From positions 1 through 58,419 of the forward strand of contig JAGTRL010000001.1 of NCBI GenBank assembly GCA_018261815.1: 58,419 nt of DNA, given 5' to 3'. Origin of the DNA: Pseudomonadota bacterium (GTDB lineage Bacteria > Pseudomonadota > Gammaproteobacteria > Burkholderiales > Burkholderiaceae_C). Below, piece by piece: positions 16,436 to 32,265 of this stretch (position 1 is the first letter of the stretch; the number at the start of each line of letters is the position of its first letter). Below the pieces are notes generated by a model. That model was not told the DNA's origin. It saw nothing but the letters and a program-made list of their open reading frames with translations, and did no database searches. The translations under genes were made by a program, and so were the position numbers.

Positions 16436-16853
16436 TCAGGCCATCGCCGCCTGCGCCGCCCTCACCTCGACGCGCACCTGCTCGGTCGGCTCGGCCTTCA
16501 GCTCGCTGAACAGCGTTGTGGTCTTGATCGAATCGAGGCGCGGGTGCGGAATCGACACCTCGCGGTCGAGCTTGATGCGCACGGGCCGCGCGCTCATCAC
16601 CAGCACGCGGCTGCCCATGAATGCCGCCTTGATGATGTCGTGGGTGACGAAGATCACCGTCTTGCGCTGCTCTTCCCCGATGCCGAGCAGCAGCTCCTGC
16701 ATCAGCTCGCGCGTCTGGTGGTCCAGCGCGCCGAAGGGCTCGTCCATCGCAGCATGCGCGGCTCGTTGGCCAGCGCGCGCTCGATCGCGGTGCGCTGCTG
16801 CATGCCGCCAGACAGCTGCTTCGGGCAATGCTTTTGGAAGCCCTTCGGCAAAA
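16436..16853 (-). pseudogene. Decayed 3' copy of the NitT/TauT ABC ATPase gene
   Basis: About 418 nt closely match the 3' part of the intact ABC ATPase gene at 18390-18807, starting exactly at the stop codon. The ABC signature region QLSGGMQQRTAIERALANEP is in one frame. A one-base deletion near 16749 throws off Walker B, and MDEPFGALDHQTRELMQELL continues in another frame. Everything upstream, including Walker A, is absent. The H-loop remains (FVTHDI) but key acidic loop residues have changed. It cannot encode a working ATPase. A methyltransferase gene lies between the two copies. Confidence 0.9.
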
Positions 16854-16859
16854 CCCCGG

Positions 16860-17206
16860 CGTATCGACACCCGTGGTGCAGGACGCCTGGCGCGGATGCG
16901 GCGGCTCCCGCCTGAAGGTGTGGAACACGAACCAGGGCGAGCAGCCGCTGCCGGCGCGCAGCGCCGCCGCGCTGCGCCTGATGCACCGCAATGGCAGCAC
17001 CGCGACGTCGATCGACAGCCGGCAGTTGTTCGAGCCGCTGCAGCCCGGCGAGCCGGCGGCGTTCGAGCTGTCCTTCGCTGGTGGCGATGGCGCCGCAGTG
17101 CGCCTCGCCCTTCCCGATTCGACGCCGCGGCCGGTGTCCGTGGCGGCGCTGCGCCGGGCCGGCCACTGCGATTGCCCGGTTCGCGCACGCCGCTCACAAT
17201 CACCCG
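16860..17206 (+). other. Stretch without a called gene; possible orphan coding fragment
   Basis: No complete gene is seen. On the plus strand a frame that is open through this stretch reads LKVWNTNQGEQPLPARSAA and FEPLQPGEPAAFELSFAG, with alternating hydrophobic residues typical of beta-sandwich domains. It has no clear start and runs on out of phase into the methyltransferase gene. It may be the stump of a gene removed when the adjacent ABC remnant formed, or chance coding potential in GC-rich DNA. Confidence 0.3.
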
Positions 17207-18256
17207 ATGGACAAGCAACGTGCGAATGCCTTCATGCTCAGGCTGGTCGGCGACGTGGCCACCACGCTGGCGGCGACGCTGCTGCTGGTCGGCGACAGGC
17301 TCGGCCTGTTCAAGGCGATGGCAGGCGCCGGGCCGCTGAGCGCGGCCGATCTGGCTGCCCGCACCGGCATCGCCGAACGTTATGCCGAGGAGTGGCTGGC
17401 GGTGATGGCCGGCGCCGGTTATGTCGATGCAGCGGCCGACGACCTGCGCTTCACGCTGCCCGACGAACATGCGCAGTTCCTGGCCAATCCGGCGTCGGAG
17501 TACTACCTGGGTGGCCTGTTCAGCGGCCTGCCGTCGATGGCGGCAATGGTGCCGAAGCTCGAGGCCGTGTTCCGCAGCGGCGGCGGCATCGCCTTTGCCG
17601 ACTTCGGCACCGAGCTGCCCGCGGCACTGGCGGCGATGAACCGCTCGGTCTACGACAACCGGCTCGCCAGTCATTGGCTGCCTGCGCTGCCGGGGGTCAT
17701 CGACAAGCTGCGTGCCGGCGGTCGCGTCGTCGATGTCGGCTGTGGTGCCGGTGTCGTGCCGGTGGCGATCGCACGGGCCTTCCCCGCGGCCACCGTCGCC
17801 GGCATCGACCTCGACAGCCACTCGATCGATCTGGCGCGCGCTGCGGCCCGCGCCGCCGGCGTCGATGTGCAGCTCGAGGCGCTGGGGGTCGAGGCGCTGC
17901 CGACCGAGCCCGGCTGGGACCTGGTGACCACCTTCGATGTCGTTCACGACCTGCCCGACCCGCTGGCGGCGCTGCAGCACATCCGCCGCGCGCTGGCGCC
18001 GGGCGGCACCTACCTGATGGTCGAGCCGAAGGTCGCCGACCGCTTGCAGGACAACCTGGGCAGTCCCTTCGCGCGCATGCTCTACGGCATCAGTTGCCTG
18101 CACTGCGTGCCGCAGTCGCTGGCGCTCGGCGGCCCCGGTCTCGGCGCCTGCTGGGGCGAATCGCGGGCCCGTGCGCTGGCTGTGCAGGCCGGTTTCGGCC
18201 GCTTCGAGCGGCTGGAGATCCGCAGCCCGGCGATGTCGTTCTACGCGCTGGGCTGA
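17207..18256 (+). CDS. SAM-dependent methyltransferase with N-terminal winged-helix domain
   Basis: 349-residue class I methyltransferase. The first 100 residues (LLLVGDRLGLFKAMAGAGPLSAADLAART) form a winged-helix-like dimerisation region as in Rv2258c-type or O-methyltransferase-like enzymes. SAM-binding motif I is VVDVGCGAGVVPVA, then GIDLDSHSI (motif II) and FDVVHDLPDP (motif IV). The substrate is unknown. The ATG at 17207 gives the family-typical N-terminus. It stands alone, opposite in strand to the intact and remnant ABC ATPase genes on either side. Confidence 0.9.
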   Translation: MDKQRANAFMLRLVGDVATTLAATLLLVGDRLGLFKAMAGAGPLSAADLAARTGIAERYAEEWLAVMAGAGYVDAAADDLRFTLPDEHAQFLANPASEYYLGGLFSGLPSMAAMVPKLEAVFRSGGGIAFADFGTELPAALAAMNRSVYDNRLASHWLPALPGVIDKLRAGGRVVDVGCGAGVVPVAIARAFPAATVAGIDLDSHSIDLARAAARAAGVDVQLEALGVEALPTEPGWDLVTTFDVVHDLPDPLAALQHIRRALAPGGTYLMVEPKVADRLQDNLGSPFARMLYGISCLHCVPQSLALGGPGLGACWGESRARALAVQAGFGRFERLEIRSPAMSFYALG

Positions 18257-18389: not shown

Positions 18390-19163
18390 TCAGGCCATCG
18401 CCGCCTGTGCGGCGCGCACCTCGACCCGCACCTGCTCGGTCAGCTCGGCCTTCAGCTCGCTGAACAGCGGCGTGGTCTTGATCGAGTAGTGCCGCGGGTG
18501 AGCGATCGGCACCTCGCGGTCGAGCTTGATGCGCCCGGGGCGCGCGCTCATCACGACCACGCGGCTGGCCATGAAGATGGCCTCGTCGATGTCATGGGTG
18601 ACGAACAGCACCGTCTTGCGCTGCTCCTCCCAGATGCCGAGCAGCAGCTCTTGCATCAGCTCGCGCGTCTGGTGGTCCAGCGCGCCGAAGGGCTCGTCCA
18701 TCAGCAGCATGCGCGGGTCGTTGGCCAGCGCGCGCGCGATCGCGGTGCGCTGCTGCATGCCGCCGGACAGCTGCTTCGGGTAGTGCTTGTCGAAGCCCTT
18801 CAAGCCCACCTTGGCCAGGAAGCCATGGGCGATGTCCAGCTGCTGCGCGCGCGGCAGGCCGCGCTCGGCCAGGCCGAAACAGACGTTGTCCAGTACCGTC
18901 AGCCAGGGGAACAGCGTATAGCTCTGGAACACCATGCCGCGGTCGGCGCCGGGGCCGTCGATGCGCTGGCCATCGAGCAGCACCTCGCCGGCGGTCTGCC
19001 GGTCCAGCCCGGCGACGATGCGCAGCAGCGTGCTCTTGCCGCAGCCGCTGGGGCCAAGAATGGTGACGAAGTCGTTCTCCGCCACCTCCAGATGGGTCGC
19101 CTGCAGCGCCAGCGTAGTGTCGAAGCGGCGCTCGACGCCGCGAACCGAGAGGATGTTGGCCAT
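18390..19163 (-). CDS. ABC transporter ATP-binding protein, NitT/TauT (SsuB/TauB) type
   Basis: 257-residue ABC ATPase that powers the adjacent permease. Motifs: Walker A GPSGCGKST at 37-45, Q-loop MVFQSYTLFPWLTV, signature LSGGMQQR at 132-139, Walker B MLLMDEP at 152-158 and H-loop FVTHD at 187-191. It follows the permease by 5 nt and is the last gene of hutU-hutH-SBP-permease-ATPase. A decayed copy of its 3' third lies 1.5 kb downstream beyond the methyltransferase gene. Confidence 0.94.
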   Translation of the reverse strand: MANILSVRGVERRFDTTLALQATHLEVAENDFVTILGPSGCGKSTLLRIVAGLDRQTAGEVLLDGQRIDGPGADRGMVFQSYTLFPWLTVLDNVCFGLAERGLPRAQQLDIAHGFLAKVGLKGFDKHYPKQLSGGMQQRTAIARALANDPRMLLMDEPFGALDHQTRELMQELLLGIWEEQRKTVLFVTHDIDEAIFMASRVVVMSARPGRIKLDREVPIAHPRHYSIKTTPLFSELKAELTEQVRVEVRAAQAAMA

Positions 19164-19168
19164 GTTGC

Positions 19169-19948
19169 TCAGCGCCCGAGTTGGGCCCACGGGAACATGT
19201 GGCGGTTGACCCACTTGAAGAACAGGTCGCTGGCCAGCCCGATCAGGCCGATGACGATGATGCCGAAGATGATCTGGTCGGTGGCCAGCAGCGCCTGGCT
19301 GTCGGTGATCATGTGGCCGATGCCGCTGGACGCACCGATCAGCTCGGCGACGATCACGTAGGTCCAGGCCCAGCCCAGCACCATGCGCAGGTGCTCGGCA
19401 ATCTCCGGCGCGGCGCCGGGGATCAGCACGCGGCGGATCAGCGAGGCATCGCCCACGCCCAGCGTGTAGGCCGCCTCGACCAGGTCGCGCCGGGTGTTGC
19501 CCACCGTCACGCTGATCATCAGCACCAGGCTGAAGAAGCTGCCGATGAAGATCACCGACAGCTTCTGCGCCTCGCCGATGCCGGCCCACAGGATCAGCAG
19601 CGGGATGAAGGCCGATGCCGGCAGGTAGCGCGCGAAACTGACGAAGGGCTCGAAGAAGGCCTCGATCGGCTTGTAGGCACCCATCGCCACGCCCAGCGGC
19701 ACGGCGATGACGGCGGCGATGAGGAAGCCGCCGAGCACGCGGAACACCGTCATGCCGATGTCGTAGGCAAAGCCCATCTCGGTGAGCAGCACCCAGCCGC
19801 TGCGCAGCATCTTCAGCGGGTCGGCCAGGAAGATCGGGTTGACCCAACCGCTGAAGGTGGCCGCCGACCACACGGCCACGAACAGCACGAAGAAGCCCAC
19901 GCCGAGCGCAACGCGCGCGCCCGGCGCCACCGGAGTCAGCGGACGCAT
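19169..19948 (-). CDS. ABC transporter permease, NitT/TauT (SsuC/TauC) type
   Basis: 259-residue inner-membrane permease with about six transmembrane helices, the first being LGVGFFVLFVAVWSAATF. The cytoplasmic EAA loop that contacts the ATPase is EAAYTLGVGDASLIRRVLIPG. It works as a homodimer in the BPD_transp_1 fold. It lies 6 nt after the substrate-binding gene and 5 nt before the ATPase, so the three are one transcription unit downstream of hutH. Confidence 0.93.
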   Translation of the reverse strand: MRPLTPVAPGARVALGVGFFVLFVAVWSAATFSGWVNPIFLADPLKMLRSGWVLLTEMGFAYDIGMTVFRVLGGFLIAAVIAVPLGVAMGAYKPIEAFFEPFVSFARYLPASAFIPLLILWAGIGEAQKLSVIFIGSFFSLVLMISVTVGNTRRDLVEAAYTLGVGDASLIRRVLIPGAAPEIAEHLRMVLGWAWTYVIVAELIGASSGIGHMITDSQALLATDQIIFGIIVIGLIGLASDLFFKWVNRHMFPWAQLGR

Positions 19949-19954
19949 GCGGGC

Positions 19955-20914
19955 CTACTGGATGAACTGGGTGGTCGCCAGCTTCGACATGTCGGGCAGC
20001 TGCTTGATGATGCCCGCCTCGAGCAGCAGTTCGGCCGCTTCCTTGCTGAACGCCGCATGCTCACCGGCGAAGAACTTCTGGTTGGCTGCCTTGTCCTGCC
20101 AGCGCAGGTACTTCTGGCTGGCCTCGAACTTGTCGGCCGTCTGCTTGACCGCGGCGCCCATGATCTCGAAGCTCCTGGCGGGTTCGGCCTTGATCATCGC
20201 CACGGCGTCGAAGTAGGCGTTGGCCAGCGCCTGCGCCGCCTTCGGGTTCTCGGCCAGGAACTTCGGCGTGCAGCCGAAGGTGTCCATGATCATCGGGTAG
20301 TCCAGCGTGGTGGCGATGATCTTGCCGGCCTCGGGCTTCTCGCGCACCGCCGACAGGTAGGGCTCGTAGGTCATCGCCGCATCCAGGTTGGCCGTGCCGG
20401 CGATGATCGCGTTGGCGGCGGCCTGCGGCTCGAGGTTGACGATGCTCACGTCCTTGGTCGACAGGCCGTTCTTCTTCAGCATCCAGGCCAGCGTGAAGTA
20501 CGGCGCCGTGCCGGGCGCGCTGGCGGCCACGGTCTTGCCCTTCAGGTCGGCGATCTTGGCGATGCCGGGCTTGACCACCATGCCGTCGGCCCCGTAGCTC
20601 TTGTCGAGCTGGAAGATCTGCGTGGTCGGGATGCCGTTGGCCGTCCAGACGATCCAGGTCTCGACCGTCGTCGCCGCGCACTGGATATCGCCGCTGGCCA
20701 GCGCCAGGTGGCGGTCCTTCTGCGGGATCATCTTGATGCTGACGTCCAGCCCATGCTTCTTGAACAGGCCGGCCTCCTTGGCCAGCGTCAGCGGCGCGAA
20801 GCCGGTCCAGCCGGACATGCCGATGACGACCTTGGTGTCCTGCGCCAGCGCGCTGCCGCCCGTCAGGGCCACGATCGCGGCCAGAGCCAGGGAGGTGAAT
20901 GCGGTCTTCTTCAT
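19955..20914 (-). CDS. ABC transporter substrate-binding protein, NitT/TauT family
   Basis: 319-residue periplasmic receptor (NMT1/SsuA-like fold). The signal peptide ends near GGSALAQD; the N-lobe starts VVIGMSGWTGFAPLTLAKEAGLFKKHG, followed by DLKGKTVAASAPGTAPYF, typical of this family. The ATG at 20914 lies 23 nt after the hutH stop, so it is probably co-transcribed with hutU-hutH. By context it may import histidine, urocanate or a related imidazole compound. The family normally binds sulfonates, nitrate or pyrimidine precursors, so the ligand is an inference. Confidence 0.92.
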   Translation of the reverse strand: MKKTAFTSLALAAIVALTGGSALAQDTKVVIGMSGWTGFAPLTLAKEAGLFKKHGLDVSIKMIPQKDRHLALASGDIQCAATTVETWIVWTANGIPTTQIFQLDKSYGADGMVVKPGIAKIADLKGKTVAASAPGTAPYFTLAWMLKKNGLSTKDVSIVNLEPQAAANAIIAGTANLDAAMTYEPYLSAVREKPEAGKIIATTLDYPMIMDTFGCTPKFLAENPKAAQALANAYFDAVAMIKAEPARSFEIMGAAVKQTADKFEASQKYLRWQDKAANQKFFAGEHAAFSKEAAELLLEAGIIKQLPDMSKLATTQFIQ

Positions 20915-20937: not shown

Positions 20938-22494
20938 TCAGAGGGTGTCGAGCCATGCCGGCAGTAGCGGCAGGGTTTGCAAGATGCGCGCCAACGAGCC
21001 GTCGCCGACCATGGTCGTGGCGGTGTCGATGTCCGGTGCCAGGTAGCGGTCCTGCGCCATCGCCGGCACGGCACTGCGCAGCAGCGCATGCGCGCGCTCC
21101 AGCGGCTCGGAACTGCGCAGCGGGCGCAGAAACTCGATGCCCTGGGCCGCGGCCAGCCATTCGATGCCGAGGATGTGCGCGGTGTTGCGGATCATCGGCT
21201 GCAGCCGGCGCGCGGCAAAGGTGGCCATGCTGACATGGTCCTCCTGGTTGGCGCTGGTGGGCAGGCTGTCGACGCTGGCCGGGTGGGCCATCGACTTGTT
21301 CTCGCTGGCCAGCGCCGCGGCGGTGACGTGGGCAATCATGAAGCCGCTGTTCAGCCCGGCATCGGCCGTCAGGAAGGGCGGCAGCCGCGACACGCCCGTG
21401 TCGATGAGCATGGCGATGCGCCGTTCGGCGATCGCGCCGACTTCGGCGATGGCCAGCGCCATGCCGTCGGCGGCCAGCGCCACCGGCTCGGCGTGAAAGT
21501 TGCCGCCGGAGATCATCATCGCCGGCAGCTCGCCTTCGGCCGCAAAGACCAGCGGGTTGTCGGTCACGGCATTGGCTTCGCGCAGCAGCACGCCGGCCGC
21601 GTGGCGCAGTTGGTCGACGCAGGCGCCCACCACCTGCGGCTGGCAGCGCAGCGAATACGGGTCCTGCACACGGTCGTCGCCGCTGGCGTGGGATTGCCGG
21701 ATCTGGCTGCCGGCCAGCAGCGCGCGGTAGGCGATGGCCACGTCGATCTGCCCGGGCTGGCCACGCAGCGCGTGGATGCGCGGGTCGAAGGGGCCGTCGC
21801 TGCCGCGCGCCGCATCCACCGTCAGCGCGCCCACCACCAGCGCCGACTGCAGCACCGGCTCGAAGGCGAACAGCGCATGCAGCGCCAGCGCGGTGGAGGT
21901 CTGCGTGCCGTTGATCAGCGCCAGCCCTTCCTTGGCCTGCAGCTTCAGCGGCTGGATGCCGGCCGACTCCAGCGCCGCCAGCGCCGGGCGGCGCCGGCCG
22001 ACCACCAGCATCTCGCCTTCGCCCAGCAGCGCCAGCGTCATGTGGGCCAGCGGCGCCAGGTCGCCCGACGCACCCACCGAACCCTGCGCCGGCACATAGG
22101 GCACCAGGCCGGCGTTGTGCACGGCGATCAGCGTGTCGACCACCTCTTCGCGCACGCCGGAGTGGCCGCGCGCCAGGCTGGCGGCCTTCAGCGCCAGCAT
22201 CAGCCGCACCACTTCCGGCGTCAGCGGCTCGCCGACACCGACGCTGTGCGAGCGGATCAGGTTGAGCTGCAGCATGTCGAGCTGCTCGGCGCTGATGCGC
22301 TGGTTGGCGAGCTTGCCGAAGCCGGTGTTGACGCCGTAGACAGGCGCCTCGCCGGCGGCCGCGGCCTGCACCACCGCCGCGCTGGCGCGGATGCGCTCGC
22401 GCGCGGCGGCCTGCAGGCTGAGTTTCTGCGGCCCCGCGTGGATGCTGCGCAGCTGGGCCAGGGACAGCTGACCCGGAATCATCTCCACGCTCAA
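20938..22494 (-). CDS. hutH: Histidine ammonia-lyase
   Basis: 518-residue cytoplasmic enzyme that removes ammonia from L-histidine to give trans-urocanate, the first step of histidine use. The Ala-Ser-Gly triad that forms the MIO cofactor is A142-S143-G144 in [14 protein letters not shown]. Other signatures are [23 protein letters not shown] and [10 protein letters not shown]. The start overlaps the hutU stop by 4 nt, so hutU and hutH are translationally coupled. The NitT/TauT ABC transporter genes follow 23 nt downstream. Probably repressed by HutC through the hutU promoter. Confidence 0.97.
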
Positions 22495-24182
22495 CCTCCG
22501 ATCATGGGCAGGTTCAGGCCCTGCTTCTTGGCGCAGGCGATGGCCACGTCGTAGCCGGCATCGGCATGGCGCATCACGCCCGTGCCGGGGTCGTTCCAGA
22601 GCACGCGCTCGATGCGCTTGGCTGCGGCATCGGTGCCGTCGCAGACGATGACCACGCCGCTGTGCTGGCTGTAGCCCATGCCGACGCCGCCGCCGTGATG
22701 CAGGCTGACCCAGGTGGCGCCGCCAGCGGTGTTGAGCAGCGCGTTCAGCAGGGGCCAGTCGGACACAGCATCGCTGCCGTCCTTCATCGATTCCGTCTCG
22801 CGGTTCGGGCTGGCGACCGAACCCGAATCCAGGTGGTCGCGGCCGATGACGATCGGCGCCTTCAGTTCACCCGACTTGACCATCTCATTGAAGGCCAGGC
22901 CGGCGCGGTGGCGCTCACCGAGACCAATCCAGCAGATGCGCGCCGGCAGGCCCTGGAAGGCAATGCGCTCGCCCGCCATGTCCAGCCAGCGATGCAGGTG
23001 CGCGTCCTCGGGGAACAGCTCTTTCATCTTGGCGTCGGTCTTGCGGATGTCCTCCGGGTCGCCGGACAGCGCCACCCAGCGGAACGGTCCCTTGCCTTGG
23101 CAGAACAACGGTCGCACGTAGGCCGGCACGAAGCCGGGGAAGTCGAAGGAGTTCTTGACGCCCGCGTCGAAAGCCACCTGGCGAATGTTGTTGCCGTAGT
23201 CCACGGTCGGGATGCCCATGGCCTGGAAGTCGAGCATCGCCTGCACGTGCACCGCGCAGCTCTTCGCCGCCGCATCGCGCAGCGCGGCATGCTGGCCGGC
23301 GTCGGCCTGCGCGGCCTTCCAGCTGTCCACGCTCCAGCCGGCGGGCAGGTAGCCGTTGACCAGGTCGTGCGCGCTGGTCTGGTCGGTCACCAGGTCGGGC
23401 TTGACGCCGCGCTTCACCAACTCGGGCAGCACCTGGGCGGCATTGCCGAGCAGGCCGATCGACACCGCTTTGCCTTCGGCCGTGTACTTGCGGATGCGCG
23501 CCAGCGCGTCGTCCAGATCGGAGGCCTGCTCGTCCAGGTACTTCGAACGCAGGCGGAAGTCGATGCGCGACTGCTGGCACTCGATGTTCAAGCTGCAGGC
23601 GCCGGCGAACGTGGCGGCCAGCGGTTGCGCCCCGCCCATGCCACCCAGGCCGGCGGTCAGGATCCACTTGCCCTTCAGGCTGCCGCCATAGTGCTGGCGG
23701 CCGGCCTCGACGAAGGTCTCGTAGGTGCCCTGCACGATGCCCTGGCTGCCAATGTAGATCCAGCTGCCGGCCGTCATCTGCCCGTACATCATCAGGCCCT
23801 TGCGGTCGAGTTCGTGGAAATGCTCCCAGGTGGCCCACTTGGGCACGAGATTGGAGTTGGCGATCAACACTCGCGGCGCGTCGACATGGGTGCGGAACAC
23901 ACCCACCGGCTTGCCGCTCTGCACCAGCAGCGTCTCGTCCTCGTTCAAGCCGCGCAGAGCCTTGAGCATCGCTTCGTAGCAGTCCCAGTTGCGCGCGGCC
24001 TTGCCGATGCCGCCGTACACCACCAGCGCGTCGGGGTTCTCGGCCACCTCGGGATCGAGGTTGTTCTGCAGCATGCGGTAGGCCGCTTCGATCAGCCAGT
24101 TCTTGCAGCTGAGGGCGGTGCCGCGCGGCGCGCGTACCGGATGGGGCTGGGCGAGCTGATGGACGCTGGACAGGTCGGACAT
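22491..24182 (-). CDS. hutU: Urocanate hydratase
   Basis: 563-residue urocanase converting urocanate to 4-imidazolone-5-propionate with tightly bound NAD+ as electrophile. Characteristic segments are [41 protein letters not shown]-like NAD-binding sequence (about 170-185) and the catalytic-cysteine region [18 protein letters not shown]. The ATG at 24182 (MSDLSSV) is chosen over a start 6 codons upstream for spacing to a GAGG ribosome site. First gene of the minus-strand hut operon, read from a promoter that overlaps the HutC operator. Confidence 0.97.
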
Positions 24183-24215
24183 GAAGGCCTCGCAGAACAC
24201 TGAATCGATGGGCCC

Positions 24216-24244
24216 ACTTTACTTGACTAGACAAGTCTATGCAA
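24216..24244 (-). promoter_or_regulatory. Predicted sigma70 promoter of hutU
   Basis: On the minus strand a -35-like TTGCAT (24244-24239) and a -10-like TAAAGT (24221-24216) are separated by exactly 17 nt, placing transcription start about 25 nt upstream of the hutU ATG. The elements are embedded in the hut operator palindromes, so repressor binding would block it. Confidence 0.5.
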
Positions 24245-24252
24245 GTAGACTT
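24221..24252. promoter_or_regulatory. HutC operator: overlapping palindromes between hutU and hutC
   Basis: Two overlapping inverted repeats lie in the 77-nt divergent gap: ACTTG-N6-CAAGT (24221-24236) and the perfect AAGTCTA-N6-TAGACTT (24233-24252). CAAGT half-sites at 24232 and 24242 are one helical turn apart. CTTG...CAAG arms are typical of HutC/GntR-family sites. The operator covers -35 and -10 elements of both promoters, so one repressor could shut off both hut arms. Confidence 0.65.
24223..24251 (+). promoter_or_regulatory. Predicted sigma70 promoter of hutC operon
   Basis: A TTGACT -35 (24223-24228) and TAGACT -10 (24246-24251) with a 17-nt spacer fit a sigma70 promoter. Start of transcription would fall near 24258, only about 2 nt before the preferred hutC ATG at 24260, so the mRNA may be leaderless. 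Both elements lie inside the operator palindromes, implying autorepression by HutC. Confidence 0.5.
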
Positions 24253-24259
24253 TTCTGCC

Positions 24260-24994
24260 ATGAGCCCCCTCGTTTACCCTAGGTCGACCGCGGCAGCGGT
24301 GGCGCCCTACGCGCGCATCAAGCAGCACCTGAAGGACGAGCTGTCGCGCGGGCGCTGGCCGCCCGGCGCGCCGATGCCGTCTGACGCGGAGCTGGTGGCG
24401 CAATTCGGCGTCAGCCGCATGACGGTGACACGCGCGCTGAACGAACTCCGCGCCGAAGGGCTGATCGAGCGCGTGCAGGGCGTGGGCACCTTCGCCGCGC
24501 ACCTGGTGCGCGTGGCCAGCACCTTGCGCATCCGCGATCTGCACGAAGAGATCACGGCACGCGGCCACCGCCACCATGCCGAGGTGCATGTGGCGCGCCA
24601 GGAAGCTGCCGGCGAGGCGGTGGCGCAGCGCCTGGGCCTGGTCGCCGGCGCGCCGGTATTCCACACGCTGATCGTGCACTTCGAGGACGGCATGGCGCTG
24701 CAGTGCGAGGACCGCCACGTCAACCCGGGCAGCGCGCCCGACTACCTGCACAACGACTTCACGCAGGTCACGCCGACGCAGTACCTGCTGCAGGTGGCGC
24801 CGTTCTGGCAGGCGCAGTATTCGATCGAGGCGGCGCTGCCCACTGCACGCGAAGCGAAGTTGCTGGGCATCGGCCGCGACGAGCCCTGCCTGGTGGTGCA
24901 ACGCCGCACCGTCGGCAAGGAGGTGCCGATCACCACCGCACGGCTGGTGCACCCGGGCACGCGCTACCTGTTGCAGGGAGAATTCAAGCCATGA
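24260..24994 (+). CDS. hutC: Histidine utilisation repressor HutC (GntR family)
   Basis: Transcription repressor of the GntR/HutC subfamily. The N-terminal winged helix includes RIKQHLKDELSRGRWPPG and the recognition helix FGVSRMTVTRALNELRAEGLI; the C-terminal UTRA domain (about residues 90-235) should bind urocanate as inducer. An in-frame ATG at 24239 exists, but it lies inside the operator and -10 region, so 24260 is preferred (244 residues). It is the first gene of the plus-strand hut operon and overlaps the dioxygenase start by 4 nt. Confidence 0.94.
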   Translation: MSPLVYPRSTAAAVAPYARIKQHLKDELSRGRWPPGAPMPSDAELVAQFGVSRMTVTRALNELRAEGLIERVQGVGTFAAHLVRVASTLRIRDLHEEITARGHRHHAEVHVARQEAAGEAVAQRLGLVAGAPVFHTLIVHFEDGMALQCEDRHVNPGSAPDYLHNDFTQVTPTQYLLQVAPFWQAQYSIEAALPTAREAKLLGIGRDEPCLVVQRRTVGKEVPITTARLVHPGTRYLLQGEFKP

Positions 24995-25821
24995 ACATCG
25001 ACGCGCGTGTGCGCGAGCGCATCACGCCCGAGCTGGTGGAGGCCTTCCGCCGCGACGGCGCCGTGTGTGTGCGCCAATTGCTGGCGCCCGACGAGGTGGT
25101 GCTGCTGCGCGAAGGCATCGACGCCAACCTGGCCGCGCCCAGCCCGCGCGCCAAGGTGGCCAGCCGCAGCGGTGACCCGGGCTTCTTCATCGAGGACTTC
25201 TGCAACTGGCGGGACAACGAGTCCTACCGCCGCGTGATCTTCGACTCAGCCTTGCCGGCGGCCGCCGGGCTGCTGACCGGCAGCCGGCAGATCCGCCTTT
25301 ATCACGACCACATGCTGACCAAGGAGCCGGGCACGCGCGCGCCCACGCCCTGGCACCAGGACCAGCCCTACTACAACGTCGAAGGTGACATGAACTGCAG
25401 CATGTGGATCCCGGTGGACCCGGTGCGCCGGCATTCGACGCTGGAGTTCGTGGCCGGCTCGCACCGCGGGCCGTGGCTGATGCCGCGCAGTTTCATGGAC
25501 AGCCAAGCGAAGTGGTTCCCCGAAGGCAGTCTGGCCGAGCTGCCCGACATCGAGGGTACGCGTGCGCGGCAGCCGATCCTGGGTTGGGAGCTGGAGCCCG
25601 GCGACGTGGTGTGCTTCCACATGCTGGCGCTGCATGCCTCGGCCGGCGTCGACGGCGACCGGCGGCGGCGTGTGTTCTCGGTGCGCTTTCTCGGCGAGGA
25701 CATGCGCCACGCACCACGCGCCTGGGTCACCTCGCCCGAGTTCCCGGGCCTGGCCGAGCGGTTGCCGGCCGGCGCACCCATGGACGACCCGTTGTTCCCG
25801 GTCTTGTGGACGGCTGCATGA
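24991..25821 (+). CDS. Phytanoyl-CoA dioxygenase (PhyH) family protein within hut operon
   Basis: 276-residue Fe(II)/2-oxoglutarate-dependent oxygenase of the PhyH family. Iron ligands are the HxD pair H122/D124 in [10 protein letters not shown] and the distal H215 in MLALHASAG, with basic residues about 224-227 placed to bind 2-oxoglutarate. It would hydroxylate a small substrate using oxygen. Overlaps with hutC (ATGA at 24991) and hutD (ATGA at 25818) lock it into the histidine operon, yet no known step of the pathway needs an oxygenase. A histidine-related or imidazole substrate is inferred. Confidence 0.9.
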
Positions 25822-26387
25822 ACCTGGTGCGCTGCGATGCCGTGGAGCCGCAACCCTGGCGCAATGGCGGCGGGCTGACGCGCGAGCTGCTGGCCTGGCC
25901 GGCTCGCGACGATTGGGCGCTGCGTCTGAGCGTGGCCGACATCCGCGCCGATGGGCCGTTCTCGGCCTTCCCTGGCGTGGACCGCTGGTTCGCGGTGATC
26001 GAAGGCCACGGCGTGCTGCTCGGCCTGCCCGAGGGCCGGCGCAGCGTGGAGATCGAGGATGCACCGCTGCCCTTCCGCGGCGAGGCCGCGCCGCAATGCG
26101 AGCTGCTGGACGGCCCGACCCGCGACCTGAACCTGATGATCCGGCGCGATGCCGGCCGCGCTGCGATGCAGCGTGCGCAAGCCGGCGAGGACTTCACGAC
26201 GCGCGCGCGCTTTCGCGCGCTGTTCACCGCCGACGCGCTGATGCTGCAGATCGATGGCAGCGATGCATTGCGCCTACCCGCCTTCGCGCTGGCCTGGGAC
26301 GCGAGCACGGCCCACGGCCGCTGGCGCGTTGCGGCCGAAACGCCGGTGCGCGCCTTGTGGATCCACTTCGAGCCGAGGCCCGCATGA
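25818..26387 (+). CDS. hutD: HutD family protein
   Basis: 189-residue cupin-like HutD/Ves protein. N-terminal [45 protein letters not shown] and [10 protein letters not shown] are family signatures. In Pseudomonas HutD acts as a regulator-like governor that limits hut expression, possibly by binding a pathway intermediate such as formylglutamate; that role is assumed here. It overlaps the dioxygenase and hutI by 4 nt on each side. Confidence 0.92.
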
Positions 26388-27589
26388 CGGCAACGCTGTG
26401 GCGCAACGCCCGCCTGGCCACGCTGGCCGGCCCCGAGCCCTGGGGCTGGGTCGAACGTGGCGCCTTGCTGGCGGACGGCCGGCAGCTGCAATGGGTCGGC
26501 GACGATGCCGCCCTGCCGGCAGGCCTGCAGGCCGATGAAGAGATCGACCTGGGTGGCGCGCTGGTGACGCCGGGCCTGGTCGATTGCCACACCCACCTGG
26601 TCTACGGTGGCCAGCGCGCGCGCGAATTCGAGCTGCGGCTGCAAGGCGCCAGCTACGAGCAGATTGCGCGCGCCGGAGGCGGCATCCGCTCCACCGTGGC
26701 GGCCACGCGCGCCGCCAGCGACGCACAGCTCTTCGCCTCGGCCCGCGAGCGTGCGCTGGCGCTGATGCGCGAGGGCGTGACCACGCTCGAGATCAAGTCC
26801 GGCTACGGCCTCAGCGCCGAGCACGAGGCGCGCTGCCTGCGCATCGCGCGCCGGCTGGGCCGCGAACTGCCGCTGACCGTGCGCACCACCTGCCTGTCGG
26901 CGCATGCGCTGCCGCCGGAGTTCGAGGGCCGTGCCGACGACTACATCTCCGCGGTGTGCACCTGGCTGCCGCAGCTGCACGCCGAAGGCCTGATCGATGC
27001 GGTCGATGCCTTCTGCGAGAGCATCGCCTTCAGCCCGGCGCAGACGCGGCGCGTGTTCGACGCCGCCAGGCATCTCGGCTTGCCGGTCAAGCTGCATGCC
27101 GAGCAGTTGAGCGACTGCGGCGGCGCAGCGCTGGCCGCGTCCTACGGCGCGCTGTCCTGCGACCATCTGGAATGGTTGTCGGCCAAGGGCGTGGGTGCCA
27201 TGGCGGCCTCCGGCAGCGTGGCCGTGCTGTTGCCCGGCGCCTTCTATTTCCTGCGCGAAACCAAGCTGCCGCCGCTGCAGGCGCTGCGCGACGCCGACGT
27301 GCCCATCGCGCTGGCCAGCGACCACAACCCGGGTTCGTCGCCGGGGCTGTCGCTGCTGCTGATGCTGAACATGGCCTGCACCTTCTTCCGCATGACGCCC
27401 GAAGAAGCGCTGCGCGGCGTCACGGCGCATGGCGCGCGTGCGCTGGGCCTGCACGACCGCGGCACGCTGGCCGCCGGCCAGCGCGCCGACTTCGTCGCGT
27501 GGGACCTGGACCACCCGAACGAGCTGGCCTACTGGTTCGGCCGCAACCCTTGCCGGCGCGTCGTCGCCGGCGGCGAGGAGCGCCACTGA
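26384..27589 (+). CDS. hutI: Imidazolonepropionase
   Basis: 401-residue amidohydrolase-superfamily enzyme that opens imidazolonepropionate to N-formimino-L-glutamate. Metal-binding HxH is H69/H71 in [11 protein letters not shown]. Further ligands are expected in [12 protein letters not shown] and [19 protein letters not shown] and [20 protein letters not shown] are substrate-binding blocks of HutI. Length fits the family. Starts inside the hutD stop (ATGA) and its stop overlaps hutG (TGATG). Confidence 0.97.
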
Positions 27590-28386
27590 TGAACGACACC
27601 CTCTACAGCCTGCAGCGCGGCACGACGCCGCTGCTAGTGAGCCTGCCGCATGCCGGCAGGCATATCCCGCCCACCATCGCCGAGCGCTTGATGCCGCGCG
27701 CGCTGCAGGTGGAAGACACCGACTGGTACCTCGACCGGCTCTATGCCTTCGTCACCGACCTGGGCGCGAGCCTGATCGTGCCGCGCCACAGCCGCTACGT
27801 GGTGGACCTGAACCGCCCCAGCGACAACCGGCCGATGTATGCCGGCGCCAACAACACCGAGCTGTGCCCGACACGTTTCTTCACCGGCGAAGCGCTCTAT
27901 CGCGACGGCCAGGCGCCGTCACCGGCCCAGGTGCAGCAGCGCGTAGCCACCTACTGGCAGCCCTACCACGACGCGCTGCGCGACGAGTTGGCAAGGCTGA
28001 AGAACGAGCATGGCCACGCCATCCTCTTCGACGGCCACAGCATCAAGTCCGAGCTGCCCTGGCTGTTCGACGGCAAGCTGCCCGACCTGAACCTGGGCAC
28101 GGCCAGCGGCGCGGCCTGCGCGCAGTCGTTGCGCGAGGCGCTGGCCACGCTGCTGCAGTCGCAAACGCAGTTCACGGTCGCCGTGGACGGACGTTTCAAG
28201 GGTGGCCACATCACTCGCCACTACGGCCAGCCCGCGATGGGCGTGCACGCGGTGCAGCTGGAAAAGTGCTGGAGCACCTACATGCACGAAACTTCGCCCT
28301 TCGAGTGGGACGCCACCCACGCGGCGCGCGTGCAGCCGCTGCTGCAGCAGATGGTGCGCACGATGCTCGACTGGACGCCACGATGA
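27589..28386 (+). CDS. hutG: N-formylglutamate deformylase
   Basis: 265-residue N-formylglutamate amidohydrolase, releasing formate and L-glutamate in the last step. Family signatures are LLVSLPHAGRHIPP, PRHSRYVVDLNRPSDN, CPTRFFTG, FDGHSIKSELPWLF and DGRFKGGHITRHYG, which supply zinc ligands. This is the FGase type of HutG, not the formiminoglutamase type, and so it matches the presence of HutF. Overlaps hutI by one base and hutF by 4 nt. Confidence 0.96.
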   Translation: MNDTLYSLQRGTTPLLVSLPHAGRHIPPTIAERLMPRALQVEDTDWYLDRLYAFVTDLGASLIVPRHSRYVVDLNRPSDNRPMYAGANNTELCPTRFFTGEALYRDGQAPSPAQVQQRVATYWQPYHDALRDELARLKNEHGHAILFDGHSIKSELPWLFDGKLPDLNLGTASGAACAQSLREALATLLQSQTQFTVAVDGRFKGGHITRHYGQPAMGVHAVQLEKCWSTYMHETSPFEWDATHAARVQPLLQQMVRTMLDWTPR

Positions 28387-29759
28387 TCGGCAGCCTGTAC
28401 TGGGCGCCACGCGCGTGGATCGACGGGCGCTGGGCGGAATCCGTGCTGCTGCGTGCCGGCAACGACGGCCACTGGGCCGAACTTCGCGCCGGCATGGCCG
28501 CGCCGCCGCAGGCCGACGTGCTGGCCGGCCCGGTGCTGCCGGGGCTGGTGGACGCGCACAGCCATGCCTTCCAGCGTGCCTTTGCCGGGCTGTCGGAGCG
28601 GCGCGAGTCCGACGCCGATGACTTCTGGTCCTGGCGTGACCGCATGTACCGCGTGGCGCTGCGCATCACGCCCGAGCAGTTGCGCGCGGTGGCGGCAATG
28701 CTCTATGCCGAACTGCTGCAAGGCGGCTACACGCAGGTCTGCGAGTTCCACTACCTGCAGCACGATCCGGCCGGACGGCCCTATGCCGATCCGCTGTGCC
28801 TGAGCTGGGCGTTGGCCGATGCCGCGGCCGACGTCGGCATCGGCCTGACGATGCTGCCGGTGCTGTACCAGCGCGCTGGCTTCGCGGCGCCGAAGCTGCG
28901 CGAGGACCAGCGCCGCTTTGCCACCGACGCCGAGACGGTGCTGGCGCTGCATCGCGGCCTGCAGCGCAGCGGCCGGCCGCTGCTGAACGCCGGCGTAGCG
29001 ATCCACTCGTTGCGCGCCGCGGCGCCGGCGTCGATCCGGCCACTGGTGGACGGCCTGGGCGATGTGCCGATCCACATCCACGTGGCCGAGCAGACGGCGG
29101 AGGTCGACGACTGCCTGCAGGCCACCGGCCAGCGGCCCATCGAATGGCTGACGCGCCATGCGGGTCTGGACGCGCGCTGGCAACTGGTGCATGCCACCCA
29201 CAGCACGCCGGCGGAGATCGACGCGGTGGCGCAAAGCGGGGCCGGTGTCGTCATCTGCCCGTCCACCGAAGGCAACCTCGGCGACGGGTTTGCCGACCTG
29301 CCGGGTTGGCTGCAAGCGGGCGTGCCGATGTCCCTGGGCTCGGACAGCCATGTCACGCGCGCCTGGCCGGAAGAGCTGCGCTGGCTGGAATATGGCCAGC
29401 GGCTGCTGCACCGCCAGCGCAACGTCGGTGCGGGGCCGGCCGAGGGCGAACCGGCCACCGCGGCGCGGCTGTTCGGCCGCGCCCTACGCGCCGGCGGCAC
29501 GGCCGCGGGCTTCGGATCCTGGGGGCTGCGCGTGGGTGCGCGTGCCGACCTGCTGGTGCTGGACACGCGCGACACCAGCCTGCTGGGCATCCCGGCCGAG
29601 CGGCTGCTGGACGCGCTGGTCTTCACCAGCCCAGGCCGGCCCTTTCGCGACGTGCTGGTGGCCGGCCGCTGGGCGCTGCGCGATCACCGGCCCACCGGTG
29701 GCACCGACACCACCGAGCGCTTCGCCAGCGCAATGCATGCGCTGTGGGACGCGGCATGA
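28383..29759 (+). CDS. hutF: Formimidoylglutamate deiminase
   Basis: 458-residue amidohydrolase-superfamily deiminase turning N-formimino-L-glutamate into N-formyl-L-glutamate plus ammonia. Metal ligands H59/H61 lie in GLVDAHSHAFQRA, with GVAIHSLRAA, HIHVAEQTAEVDDC and GSDSHVTRAW further along. Its presence with HutG defines the two-step formylglutamate branch seen in Pseudomonas and many betaproteobacteria. Overlaps hutG and the following membrane-protein gene by 4 nt each. Confidence 0.96.
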   Translation: MIGSLYWAPRAWIDGRWAESVLLRAGNDGHWAELRAGMAAPPQADVLAGPVLPGLVDAHSHAFQRAFAGLSERRESDADDFWSWRDRMYRVALRITPEQLRAVAAMLYAELLQGGYTQVCEFHYLQHDPAGRPYADPLCLSWALADAAADVGIGLTMLPVLYQRAGFAAPKLREDQRRFATDAETVLALHRGLQRSGRPLLNAGVAIHSLRAAAPASIRPLVDGLGDVPIHIHVAEQTAEVDDCLQATGQRPIEWLTRHAGLDARWQLVHATHSTPAEIDAVAQSGAGVVICPSTEGNLGDGFADLPGWLQAGVPMSLGSDSHVTRAWPEELRWLEYGQRLLHRQRNVGAGPAEGEPATAARLFGRALRAGGTAAGFGSWGLRVGARADLLVLDTRDTSLLGIPAERLLDALVFTSPGRPFRDVLVAGRWALRDHRPTGGTDTTERFASAMHALWDAA

Positions 29760-30244
29760 ACCGCCTGCCCTTCATCGACCGCTACTTCGGCGCGGAGAAG
29801 CTGGAGGCGTTGCTGTTCATCGTCGTCGGCGCGCTGGCGATCGCGCTGGCGCTGGTGCTGCTGCGCCGGCGCAGCCGGCTGCGCGGCATGGCCATTCCAT
29901 TGGTCGCCGTGGCGCTGATCCAGGGGGTGGTGGGCGCAACGGTCTACCTGCGCAGCGACGCGCAGATCGCGCGGCTGCAGCGGCAGGCACAGGAAGCGCC
30001 GGCGCAGTTCAAGAACGAAGAGGCCGCGCGCATGCGCAGCGTCATCGCCAACTTCGATCTCTACCGGCGCATCGAGATCGGCCTGCTCGCGCTCGGCATG
30101 GCCATCGTCGTGCTGCTGCGCAACCGCGAATTCGGGTTCGCCTTCGGCCTGGGGCTGGTGCTGCAGTCGGGCTTCATGCTCGCACTGGACCACTTTGCGC
30201 AAGCCCGCGCACACGAGTACTTCAAGGCGGTCCTGGGCAGCTGA
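29756..30244 (+). CDS. Small membrane protein coupled to the hut operon, function unknown
   Basis: 162-residue protein with about four predicted transmembrane segments (around 18-36, 46-62, 108-122 and 126-145) and a hydrophilic central stretch rich in Gln, Glu and Arg (about 68-100). No known domain is recognised. It starts inside the hutF stop (ATGA), so it is translated with the histidine pathway, although it might simply use the operon's transcription. Its stop lies 2 nt from the convergent spermidine-synthase-like gene. A transport or stress role is possible but unsupported. Confidence 0.8.
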   Translation: MNRLPFIDRYFGAEKLEALLFIVVGALAIALALVLLRRRSRLRGMAIPLVAVALIQGVVGATVYLRSDAQIARLQRQAQEAPAQFKNEEAARMRSVIANFDLYRRIEIGLLALGMAIVVLLRNREFGFAFGLGLVLQSGFMLALDHFAQARAHEYFKAVLGS

Positions 30245-30246
30245 AG

Positions 30247-32265
30247 TCAGCCGCCGCGGCTGAAGGACAGCACCTGCAGGATGTTGCTGTAGTCGTCGGT
30301 CCAGGTGCGCGTGCCCTCGCCCTGCGGCAATGGCGTCGTCGCCTCGCGGATCAGCGGCAGGTCCAGCACGCTGCGCTCGTCGGCCAGCAGCACCCAGTCG
30401 GACACCGAGGTGCTGGGGTCGCCTTCGACACCGGGATCGGCAATGAAGGCCGCCTGCAGGCCCAGCTCGGCAGCGATGCGCCCGACCACCGGCGCCAGCG
30501 CCAGGTGGGTGTTGCTGACATGCAGCGCGATCACGCCGCCGGGCTTCAGGCGCTGGCGGTACAGCTCCACCGCCTCGCGCGTGAGCAGGTGCACCGGGAT
30601 CGAATCGCCCGAGAAGGCATCGACCACCAGCACGTCGAAGCGGCGCTGGCCTTCCGCCTGCAGCAGCAGGCGGCCGTCGCCCACGGCCACATCCACCGTG
30701 GCGGGGGAATCGGCGATGAAGCTGAAATGCTGGTGCGCCGCGCTGACGATGGCCTCGTCGATTTCGTAGAAGCGGTAGTGGTCGCCCTGCTTGCCGTAGG
30801 CCACGATGGTGCCGGCGCCCAGACCCACGGCACCGACCTCGAGCGGCCGGTCGGCCAGTGCACGGAACAGGCGGCCGACGCCGGAGTTGGGGCTGTAGTA
30901 GCTGGTCGGCCGCTTCCTGAAATGGGGCGCCAGGAACTGCTGACCATGCATGATGCTGCCGTGGATGAGCACGCGCTCGTGCGCCTCGGGGTTGTCGCGG
31001 CCGTATTCGCGCACCCGCACCACGCCGTAGAAGTTGCGGCTGATGAAGCTGACTTCGTTCAACGCCTCCTTTACGCGCAGCGTGGCCGTGCCCAGGCTGC
31101 CGAGCAGCACCAGGCCCGCGGCGGCGGCCCACCACCGGCCCTGACCCCACGAGCGCCACAGCACGGCCGCCGCCATCAGCACCAAGCCCAACTCCACCTC
31201 GAAGTAGCCCTTGAGCAGCGCCGGCGCGCCCAGCGCCACGACCGCACCGCCGACCACCCCGCCCGCCGACACCGCCAGGTAGAAGTGCGTCAGCCGCGTC
31301 GGCGCCGGGCGGATGCGCGCCAGCTCGCCGTGGCAGAACATGCAGACGATGAACAGCCCCAGCAGGAAGGTCAGGATGTGCCAACCAATGCCGTCCAGTT
31401 GCCGTTCCTGCAGCAGCACGCCGCACATCACGGCCAGCGCCAGCAGCGTAGCCCCGCGGAAGGCGCGCGGCGGGTACCAGCGCTCGGCGTCGAAGCACAG
31501 CGTGAAGCTGAGCAGGTAGATCACCAGCGGCAGCACCCACATCATCGGGAACGACGGGATGTTCTGCGTCAGGTGGTTGGTCAGCGCGACCAGCGCATAG
31601 CTGCCCAGCGCCGCCAGCGCGAACCAGCTCAGCGTGCGTGGCCAGCCCGGCACGGGCGCGTCGTCGGCCACGGCCGATGCCGCCAGGGGGCTGCGTCGGC
31701 GCAGGCTGATGGCACACAGCGCCAGCACATAGGCCGCATAGGCCGCCGACCAGACCCCGCCCTGCGTAGCCGTGGGCAGCCACGGCTCGATCAGCCACGG
31801 GTAGGCCAGCAGCGCTGCCAGCGAGGCGGCGTTGGACACCGCGAACAGCCGGTACGGGTTACCCTGGCTGCTGGCACCGGCGCGCCAGGCCTGCAGCAGC
31901 GGGCTGGTCATGGCCAGCAGCGTGAAGGGCATGCCGATGGTCAGCAGCAGCAGCCCCAGGATCTGCAGGCCGGGACCGGTCGACTCCAGGCCCGGCCAGG
32001 CGGTCACCGGCACGATCGGCAGCAGCGCCAGGCTGCCCAGCAGCAGTGCGACATGCGTGTACTTCAGTGCGCGGCTGCGGTCATGGCGCACCAGGTGGTG
32101 CGCGAAGGCATAACCCAGCAGCAGCGCGGCCTGAAAGAAGACCAGGCAGGTGGCCCACACCGCCACGCTGCCGCCAAAGCGCGGCAGGATCAGTTTGGCG
32201 ATGATCGGCTGCACCAGGAACAGCAGGAAGGCGCTGAGGAAGACGGTGACGGCCGTCAATGCCAT
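30247..32265 (-). CDS. Membrane-fused spermidine synthase-like protein
   Basis: 672-residue fusion. Roughly the first 400 residues form about ten or more transmembrane helices (starting AVTVFLSAFLLFLVQPIIAKLILP). The C-terminal 270 residues are a spermidine-synthase-like Rossmann domain with GAVGLGAGTIVAYGK, YEIDEAIV and VDAFSGDSIPVHLLT. The family is widespread but mostly uncharacterised, and the soluble domain may transfer aminopropyl groups or bind a SAM-like ligand. The start at 32265 is preceded by a gene-free stretch containing a large inverted repeat. Confidence 0.88.
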   Translation of the reverse strand: MALTAVTVFLSAFLLFLVQPIIAKLILPRFGGSVAVWATCLVFFQAALLLGYAFAHHLVRHDRSRALKYTHVALLLGSLALLPIVPVTAWPGLESTGPGLQILGLLLLTIGMPFTLLAMTSPLLQAWRAGASSQGNPYRLFAVSNAASLAALLAYPWLIEPWLPTATQGGVWSAAYAAYVLALCAISLRRRSPLAASAVADDAPVPGWPRTLSWFALAALGSYALVALTNHLTQNIPSFPMMWVLPLVIYLLSFTLCFDAERWYPPRAFRGATLLALAVMCGVLLQERQLDGIGWHILTFLLGLFIVCMFCHGELARIRPAPTRLTHFYLAVSAGGVVGGAVVALGAPALLKGYFEVELGLVLMAAAVLWRSWGQGRWWAAAAGLVLLGSLGTATLRVKEALNEVSFISRNFYGVVRVREYGRDNPEAHERVLIHGSIMHGQQFLAPHFRKRPTSYYSPNSGVGRLFRALADRPLEVGAVGLGAGTIVAYGKQGDHYRFYEIDEAIVSAAHQHFSFIADSPATVDVAVGDGRLLLQAEGQRRFDVLVVDAFSGDSIPVHLLTREAVELYRQRLKPGGVIALHVSNTHLALAPVVGRIAAELGLQAAFIADPGVEGDPSTSVSDWVLLADERSVLDLPLIREATTPLPQGEGTRTWTDDYSNILQVLSFSRGG

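Follow-up and report, generated by a model that had tools for sequence, protein, structure and literature searches.

To our knowledge, no oxygenase is part of the described hut pathway. The regulon of its repressor, HutC, includes the hut genes and transporters and, in two species, also the histidine biosynthesis operon; neither "phytanoyl" nor "dioxygenase" occurs in the main text of the paper describing this regulon (PMC5343134). Among the papers listed by searches of the openly licensed literature, none was found to describe a PhyH or 2-oxoglutarate (2OG) oxygenase in hut operons. The best-matching solved relative of the oxygenase considered here is MysH, whose gene belongs to cyanobacterial sunscreen (mycosporine-like amino acid) biosynthesis (PMC10510106, PMC11378024). 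The prediction for MysH is that it hydroxylates the mycosporine at its glycyl group and thereby destabilizes this group (PMC10510106).

The window, the whole stretch of DNA analyzed here (58,419 nucleotides from a Burkholderiales genome), contains HutH, HutU, HutI, HutF, HutG, HutC and HutD, all above the curated cut-offs of their models (Table 1). In contrast to the described core pathway, its hut string also has a PhyH oxygenase. The gene order of the string is hutC-PhyH-hutD-hutI-hutG-hutF, with hutU-hutH divergent from it. The PhyH gene overlaps hutC (which extends to 24994) and hutD (at 25818-25821) by 4 nt each, with a shared ATGA in both cases. The overlap is 4 nt between hutD and hutI, and 1 nt between hutI and hutG. 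A scan of positions 24150-30300 gave a single promoter-like match, at 24223-24251, overlapping a HutC-like palindrome in the hutU/hutC gap, and no match directly before PhyH. The 4-nt overlaps on both sides of PhyH, together with the lack of promoter-like matches inside the string, point to one transcription unit. A first-pass annotation of this DNA had assigned the oxygenase gene to the hut string and had named expression from a promoter of its own as one possible objection; the assignment is borne out, and the only promoter-like match in the scanned positions coincides with the HutC-like operator.

Table 1. Features of the hut region in the window, with the basis of each assignment
Feature	Coordinates	Strand	Basis
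ATPase, permease and NMT1-type binding protein genes, downstream of hutH	18390..20914	-	family profiles
hutH, histidine ammonia-lyase	20938..22494	-	685.1 bits (cut-off 539)
hutU, urocanate hydratase	22491..24200	-	975.7 bits (cut-off 375)
HutC-like operator TTGACTAGACAA, divergent hutU/hutC gap	24223..24234	+	motif only
hutC, GntR/UTRA repressor	24239..24994	+	curated model, 273.5 bits (cut-off 220)
PhyH-family Fe(II)/2OG oxygenase, 276 aa	24991..25821	+	Pfam profile, alignments, fold model; residue roles by homology
hutD	25818..26387	+	PF05962, E 4e-38
hutI, imidazolonepropionase	26384..27589	+	467.7 bits (cut-off 298)
hutG, N-formylglutamate deformylase	27589..28386	+	346.4 bits (cut-off 279)
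hutF, formimidoylglutamate deiminase	28383..29759	+	491.5 bits (cut-off 413)

The listed start of hutC overlaps the promoter-like site, and translation may in fact begin at an ATG further on. The hutF product was scored from 28398, with its ATG read at 28383. The transporter genes downstream of hutH likely correspond to the HisXYZ-type histidine transporter predicted for Comamonadaceae (PMC5343134). The ABC ATPase gene has its 3′ part duplicated (16436-16846 and 18390-18801), with matches of 89% over 300 nt and 93% over 98 nt. The two parts are spaced by about 1955 nt, and a methyltransferase-type ORF (16991-18256) separates the partial copy from the complete gene.

The ORF of the oxygenase begins with ATGAAC and ends with a TGA stop codon. 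Residues 19-228 match the Pfam PhyH profile (PF05721) with an E value of 6e-23 and 82.6 bits, compared to a gathering cut-off of 22. His122, Asp124, His215 and Arg226 are invariant in all 71 aligned sequences, and likewise in a 64-row subset. By homology, His122, Asp124 and His215 would form the metal triad and Arg226 would be the 2OG-binding arginine. A fold model from a 64-row alignment has a mean pLDDT of 93.8, and its best fold match is MysH, followed by SnoK and SnoN; EctD and human PhyH are also among the matches. On the profile, the residues and the predicted fold, which agree, the ORF is assigned to the PhyH Fe(II)/2OG oxygenases, and its product is predicted to have 2OG- and iron-dependent catalytic activity.

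The match to MysH (PDB 9c9n and 9ci4) has E values of 6e-30 with phmmer and 4e-51 with the profile. The model aligns to MysH over 238 residues, with a Z score of 31.4, an rmsd of 2.0 and about 27% identity over the fold, suggesting the same PhyH-type catalytic core. The gene settings are different, however, as the window gene sits among genes of histidine catabolism in Proteobacteria. Its neighbors are hut genes rather than the mycosporine genes expected for the MysH subfamily, and MysH is taken as the nearest solved relative only. An identity as 1-deoxypentalenic acid 11-beta-hydroxylase (NF045813) is not supported, at 23.3 bits against a curated cut-off of 550.

Relatives of the protein were collected by a scan of genomes, which gave at least 592 pattern matches, with a relative encoded at no fewer than 582. 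The analysis was restricted to the best 80, a set biased to close relatives of the window protein. A locus was counted as hut-linked if hutH, hutU, hutI or hutD is present within 8 kb, and as not linked if none is found although at least 4 kb is present on both sides. Among these best 80 of at least 582 relatives, 41 are near hut genes (one of them, L018, near a hutI-like gene only), 32 are not, and 7 are on contigs too short to tell. By tblastn (same strand, within about 300 nt), hutD directly follows PhyH in 31 of the 41 hut-linked loci, and the gene directly upstream is hutC, hutU or an ABC ATPase gene in 10 loci each. The window gene shows a dN of 0.133 and a dS of 0.47 relative to its orthologue in L001, indicating purifying selection, and its base composition (GC3 0.90) resembles that of the adjoining genes. 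The hut linkage is more than chance, given the 41 linked loci in this set of 80, the purifying selection and the neighbor-like base composition.

At least six gene orders show the linkage, which extends to relatives with about 41% identity. In Variovorax, hutU-PhyH is followed by IclR-type and SBP genes and then by hutD, while the Acidovorax order is hutU-IclR-SBP-permease-ATPase-PhyH-hutD; no title dealing with this Acidovorax transporter was listed in the openly licensed literature. PhyH comes first in L026, followed by hutD-hutI-hutG-hutF, with hutH divergent. L070 has PhyH between genes for a branched-chain-type SBP and a permease, with hutU and hutI downstream, and the order in L025 is formimidoylglutamase-hutU-hutH-permease-PhyH. 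At about 43% identity, L141 and L144 have IclR-arginase family-PhyH-hutU-hutH. In L169 (about 41% identity, absent from the tree), no more than 2 kb separates PhyH from hutU-hutI-hutH; PhyH points away from these genes, with a binding-protein ORF between. Branched-chain-type SBPs that are 51-74% alike accompany PhyH in L026, L070, L141, L143 and L144. On a protein tree built by a quick method from 130 rows, 39 of which fall in no group, the hut label needs 10 changes, at least 3 of them forced by well-supported branches, compared to a mean of 30 under label shuffles. The hut association thus recurs on separate branches, in differently built operons. This rules out a lone insertion in this genome, and the concern in the first-pass annotation that the gene might be found only here, at this place, does not hold.

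Of the 41 hut-linked loci, 36 have a HutC-like operator (at most one mismatch), compared to 1 of the 39 others among the best 80 of at least 582 relatives; these counts are partly circular because the same loci had served to refine the pattern. The five hut-linked loci that lack it are L018, L025, L031, L036 and L065, with the upstream sequence truncated in L031 and L036. When 40 loci were each shuffled once by mononucleotide, no sites were obtained, compared to 28 in the real sequence. Given the circularity, the informative sites are those in L026, located about 36 bp before the PhyH start taken, and in L070, located between hutC and SBP-PhyH. PhyH is predicted to be co-transcribed with the hut genes and controlled by HutC. 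HutC-family regulators also adjoin PhyH at places away from hut. Two members of one clade of the tree, L075 (Burkholderia paludis) and L130, have a full-length regulator (299 bits, cut-off 220) convergent to PhyH and a polar amino-acid-type SBP, and no hut enzyme genes are present there. In L093, a HutC-like fragment, short in that assembly, adjoins PhyH.

The distribution of PhyH and hutU was surveyed in 399 genomes of the order (PhyH threshold E 1e-60) and 370 genomes of the class (E 1e-55), with the genome of the window counted in both. In the order survey, 19 genomes have PhyH and 76 have hutU, which is present in 15/19 PhyH genomes and 61/380 others. The corresponding numbers for the class are 11 and 51, with hutU in 8/11 PhyH genomes and 43/359 others. 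Fisher tests, which ignore kinship and genome size, give p values of 1e-8 (order) and 9e-6 (class), or 4e-4 and 1e-4, respectively, when counted by genus. The two genes are within 10 kb of each other in 4 of the 15 order genomes (G000, G226, G046 and G233) and 2 of the 8 class genomes (G000 and G746), and in some of the others they are on different contigs. PhyH and hutU therefore co-occur above background, though mostly apart on the chromosome. No hutU was detected in 4/19 PhyH genomes of the order and 3/11 of the class.

Within the genus of the window, 14 of 37 genomes have a PhyH orthologue, 10 of these in the hut operon. hutU is present in 31 of the 37, 13 of them with the orthologue and 18 without it. 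Among the 21 same-genus hutU genomes that do not have PhyH at hut, 17 hutU regions were examined (G011, G025, G026 and G034 were left out). In 15 of them hutC adjoins hutD, with match gaps of at most 153 nt and no room for PhyH; of the other two, the L191 sequence stops short of this place and L194 has a different gene arrangement. PhyH and hutU are on separate contigs in G004 and G006. The orthologue can therefore be present, absent or on another contig within one genus, and the module comes, goes and moves. The same-genus hutU genomes without PhyH exclude a core hut enzyme, present wherever hut is. They also confirm an earlier statement, that the core pathway needs no oxygenase. On the other hand, the description of the gene as locked inside the operon is not supported, as hutC and hutD are too close together in the operons just mentioned to accommodate it, 32 of the best 80 (of at least 582) relatives have no hut gene within 8 kb, and seven PhyH genomes of the surveys lack hutU. 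PhyH is dispensable for hut in the genus and is therefore an accessory module, neither core nor locked in.

Overall, PhyH is probably a hut-linked accessory oxygenase with a functional link to histidine-type catabolism. The fuller statement, that it is an accessory catabolic Fe(II)/2OG oxygenase of the hut unit acting on a histidine-related molecule, with the exact reaction left aside, has an even chance of being correct in our judgment. As a candidate role, PhyH could plausibly open an entry branch for modified histidine. Placed in the hut unit of some bacteria, probably under HutC, it would oxidize a histidine-related small molecule with O2 and 2OG, and the product would enter the ordinary HutH-HutU-HutI-HutF-HutG route. 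The most likely reaction would be hydroxylation of the carbon of the N-methyl (or similar) group on an N-alkylated histidine, after which the hydroxylated compound would fall apart to histidine and an aldehyde. We infer the imidazole substrate and the N-dealkylation, and as the specific reaction N-dealkylation is put forward tentatively, with a probability well below one half. Still more tentative is the complete proposal that a HutC-controlled PhyH strips N-alkyl groups (from N-methylhistidine, or hercynine and its demethylation products) as a widespread entry branch of hut. The hut pathway is a textbook route, and its extension to modified histidines by the PhyH module would explain how methylated histidines are used by some bacteria; HutH is not known to handle these compounds. 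Soil, fungi and animals would then be sources of betaine-type or methylated histidine to be burnt through hut, and a large clade of PhyH proteins would have an easily tested function.

N-dealkylation is favored because MysH is predicted to strip a glycyl group by hydroxylation and because MTTB or Rieske genes are near PhyH in some lineages. In L169 the next gene on the PhyH strand is an MTTB family member (677 bits). As listed, the two ORFs share 59 nt, but the family match starts only at residue 56 of the MTTB ORF, whose actual start may therefore lie further downstream. In L032, PhyH and MTTB are convergent neighbors, and MTTB is within about 4 kb of PhyH, with other genes between, in L039, L040 and L069 (one clade). 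A VanA_C-type Rieske oxygenase, matching an O-demethylase-type family, is about 1-4 kb from PhyH in L010, L011, L016, L149 and L157 (by tblastn likeness only in L011 and L016). The MTTB superfamily and VanA_C-type Rieske proteins are other enzyme families than PhyH, and in a few lineages they might be its partners in demethylation. A search of 41 PhyH genomes detected MTTB in 8, with 3-11 matches each, so that its closeness to PhyH could partly be chance. It was found neither in the 31 same-order genomes among the 41 nor in the genome of the window, which weakens a general partnership of MTTB with PhyH. N-dealkylation is kept at its low grade because MTTB is not general and the contexts away from hut are varied. 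Title and term searches of the openly licensed literature found no paper on a methylhistidine demethylase and, among the titles listed, none on hercynine breakdown by demethylation.

These contexts bear on the alternative that the substrate is unrelated to histidine, and that PhyH repeatedly lands in hut because hut is induced under amino-acid-rich conditions. Many close orthologues are alone, beside LysR, or in other operons, and most PhyH genes in the surveys are not near hutU. The neighbors outside hut include allantoin-type genes, an MFS carrier with a nucleoside hydrolase, a dihydroorotate dehydrogenase, SDR/AKR genes and single genes beside LysR, and this variety fits other substrates equally well. 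Of 23 matching plasmid records, 9 were inspected, one of them without annotation at that place; no hut gene is seen in the 8 annotated stretches, and all 8 records name the protein only as a phytanoyl-CoA dioxygenase family protein. However, the recurrent, separate joins to differently built hut operons, the HutC-like operators and the genome co-occurrence with hutU argue against an unrelated substrate, and we consider it unlikely, with perhaps one chance in four.

Two further alternatives keep an imidazole or amino acid substrate and are both rather improbable. PhyH could C-hydroxylate or desaturate imidazole propionate or lactate to give urocanate for HutU, directly or after loss of water, as would suit its position directly beside hutU in the Variovorax-type and L141/L144 operons. 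The arrangement AKR-PhyH-SDR in L176 and its relative L178, and an SDR beside PhyH in L091 and L007, suggest an alcohol product in some relatives. These dehydrogenase neighbors are not conserved, however, and 7 of the 30 PhyH genomes of the surveys (19 plus 11, the genome of the window being in both) lack hutU, without which urocanate would not serve them in this way. Alternatively, PhyH could hydroxylate histidine itself or amino acids generally, in a side branch or in osmolyte or secondary metabolism. Amino-acid-type transporters are near PhyH in several loci, and the structural matches include GriE, proline hydroxylase H11 and EctD, PhyH enzymes whose substrates are free amino acids or ectoine. 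MysH matches better than these three, however, and a histidine-consuming side branch would make little metabolic sense within a catabolic operon.

Oxidation of a thiol- or S-methyl-modified imidazole of the ergothioneine type is the least probable alternative, as the protein that speaks for it (863 bits to S-methyl thiourocanate hydratase, cut-off 880; L148:11447-13045 (-), the divergent arm of PhyH-hutU-hutH) was found in G233 only, with the L144 contig ending before that position, and the HutU of the window is far below the cut-offs of thiourocanate-type models and above that of HutU. Ergothionase gives a thiourocanate-type acid and trimethylamine (PMC7653990), and thiourocanate terms matched no paper in the openly licensed literature. 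The G233 cluster also encodes an ABC transporter of the branched-chain type and another amidohydrolase of the HutI type (332.6 bits, cut-off 298).

Some further neighbors of PhyH are shared by several loci. A dihydroorotate-dehydrogenase-family gene is located just before PhyH in L030, L037, L043, L045 and L064 (by Pfam in L030, by likeness in the others), and it overlaps PhyH by 4 nt in L030, L037 and L043. PhyH follows genes for OHCU decarboxylase and an M20 peptidase, of the allantoin type, in L072 (Limnohabitans) and L079 (families checked in L079, by cluster in L072). In two gammaproteobacterial MAGs (L040:7268-7981 and L069:7298-7966), a TIR-domain protein is encoded directly upstream of PhyH.
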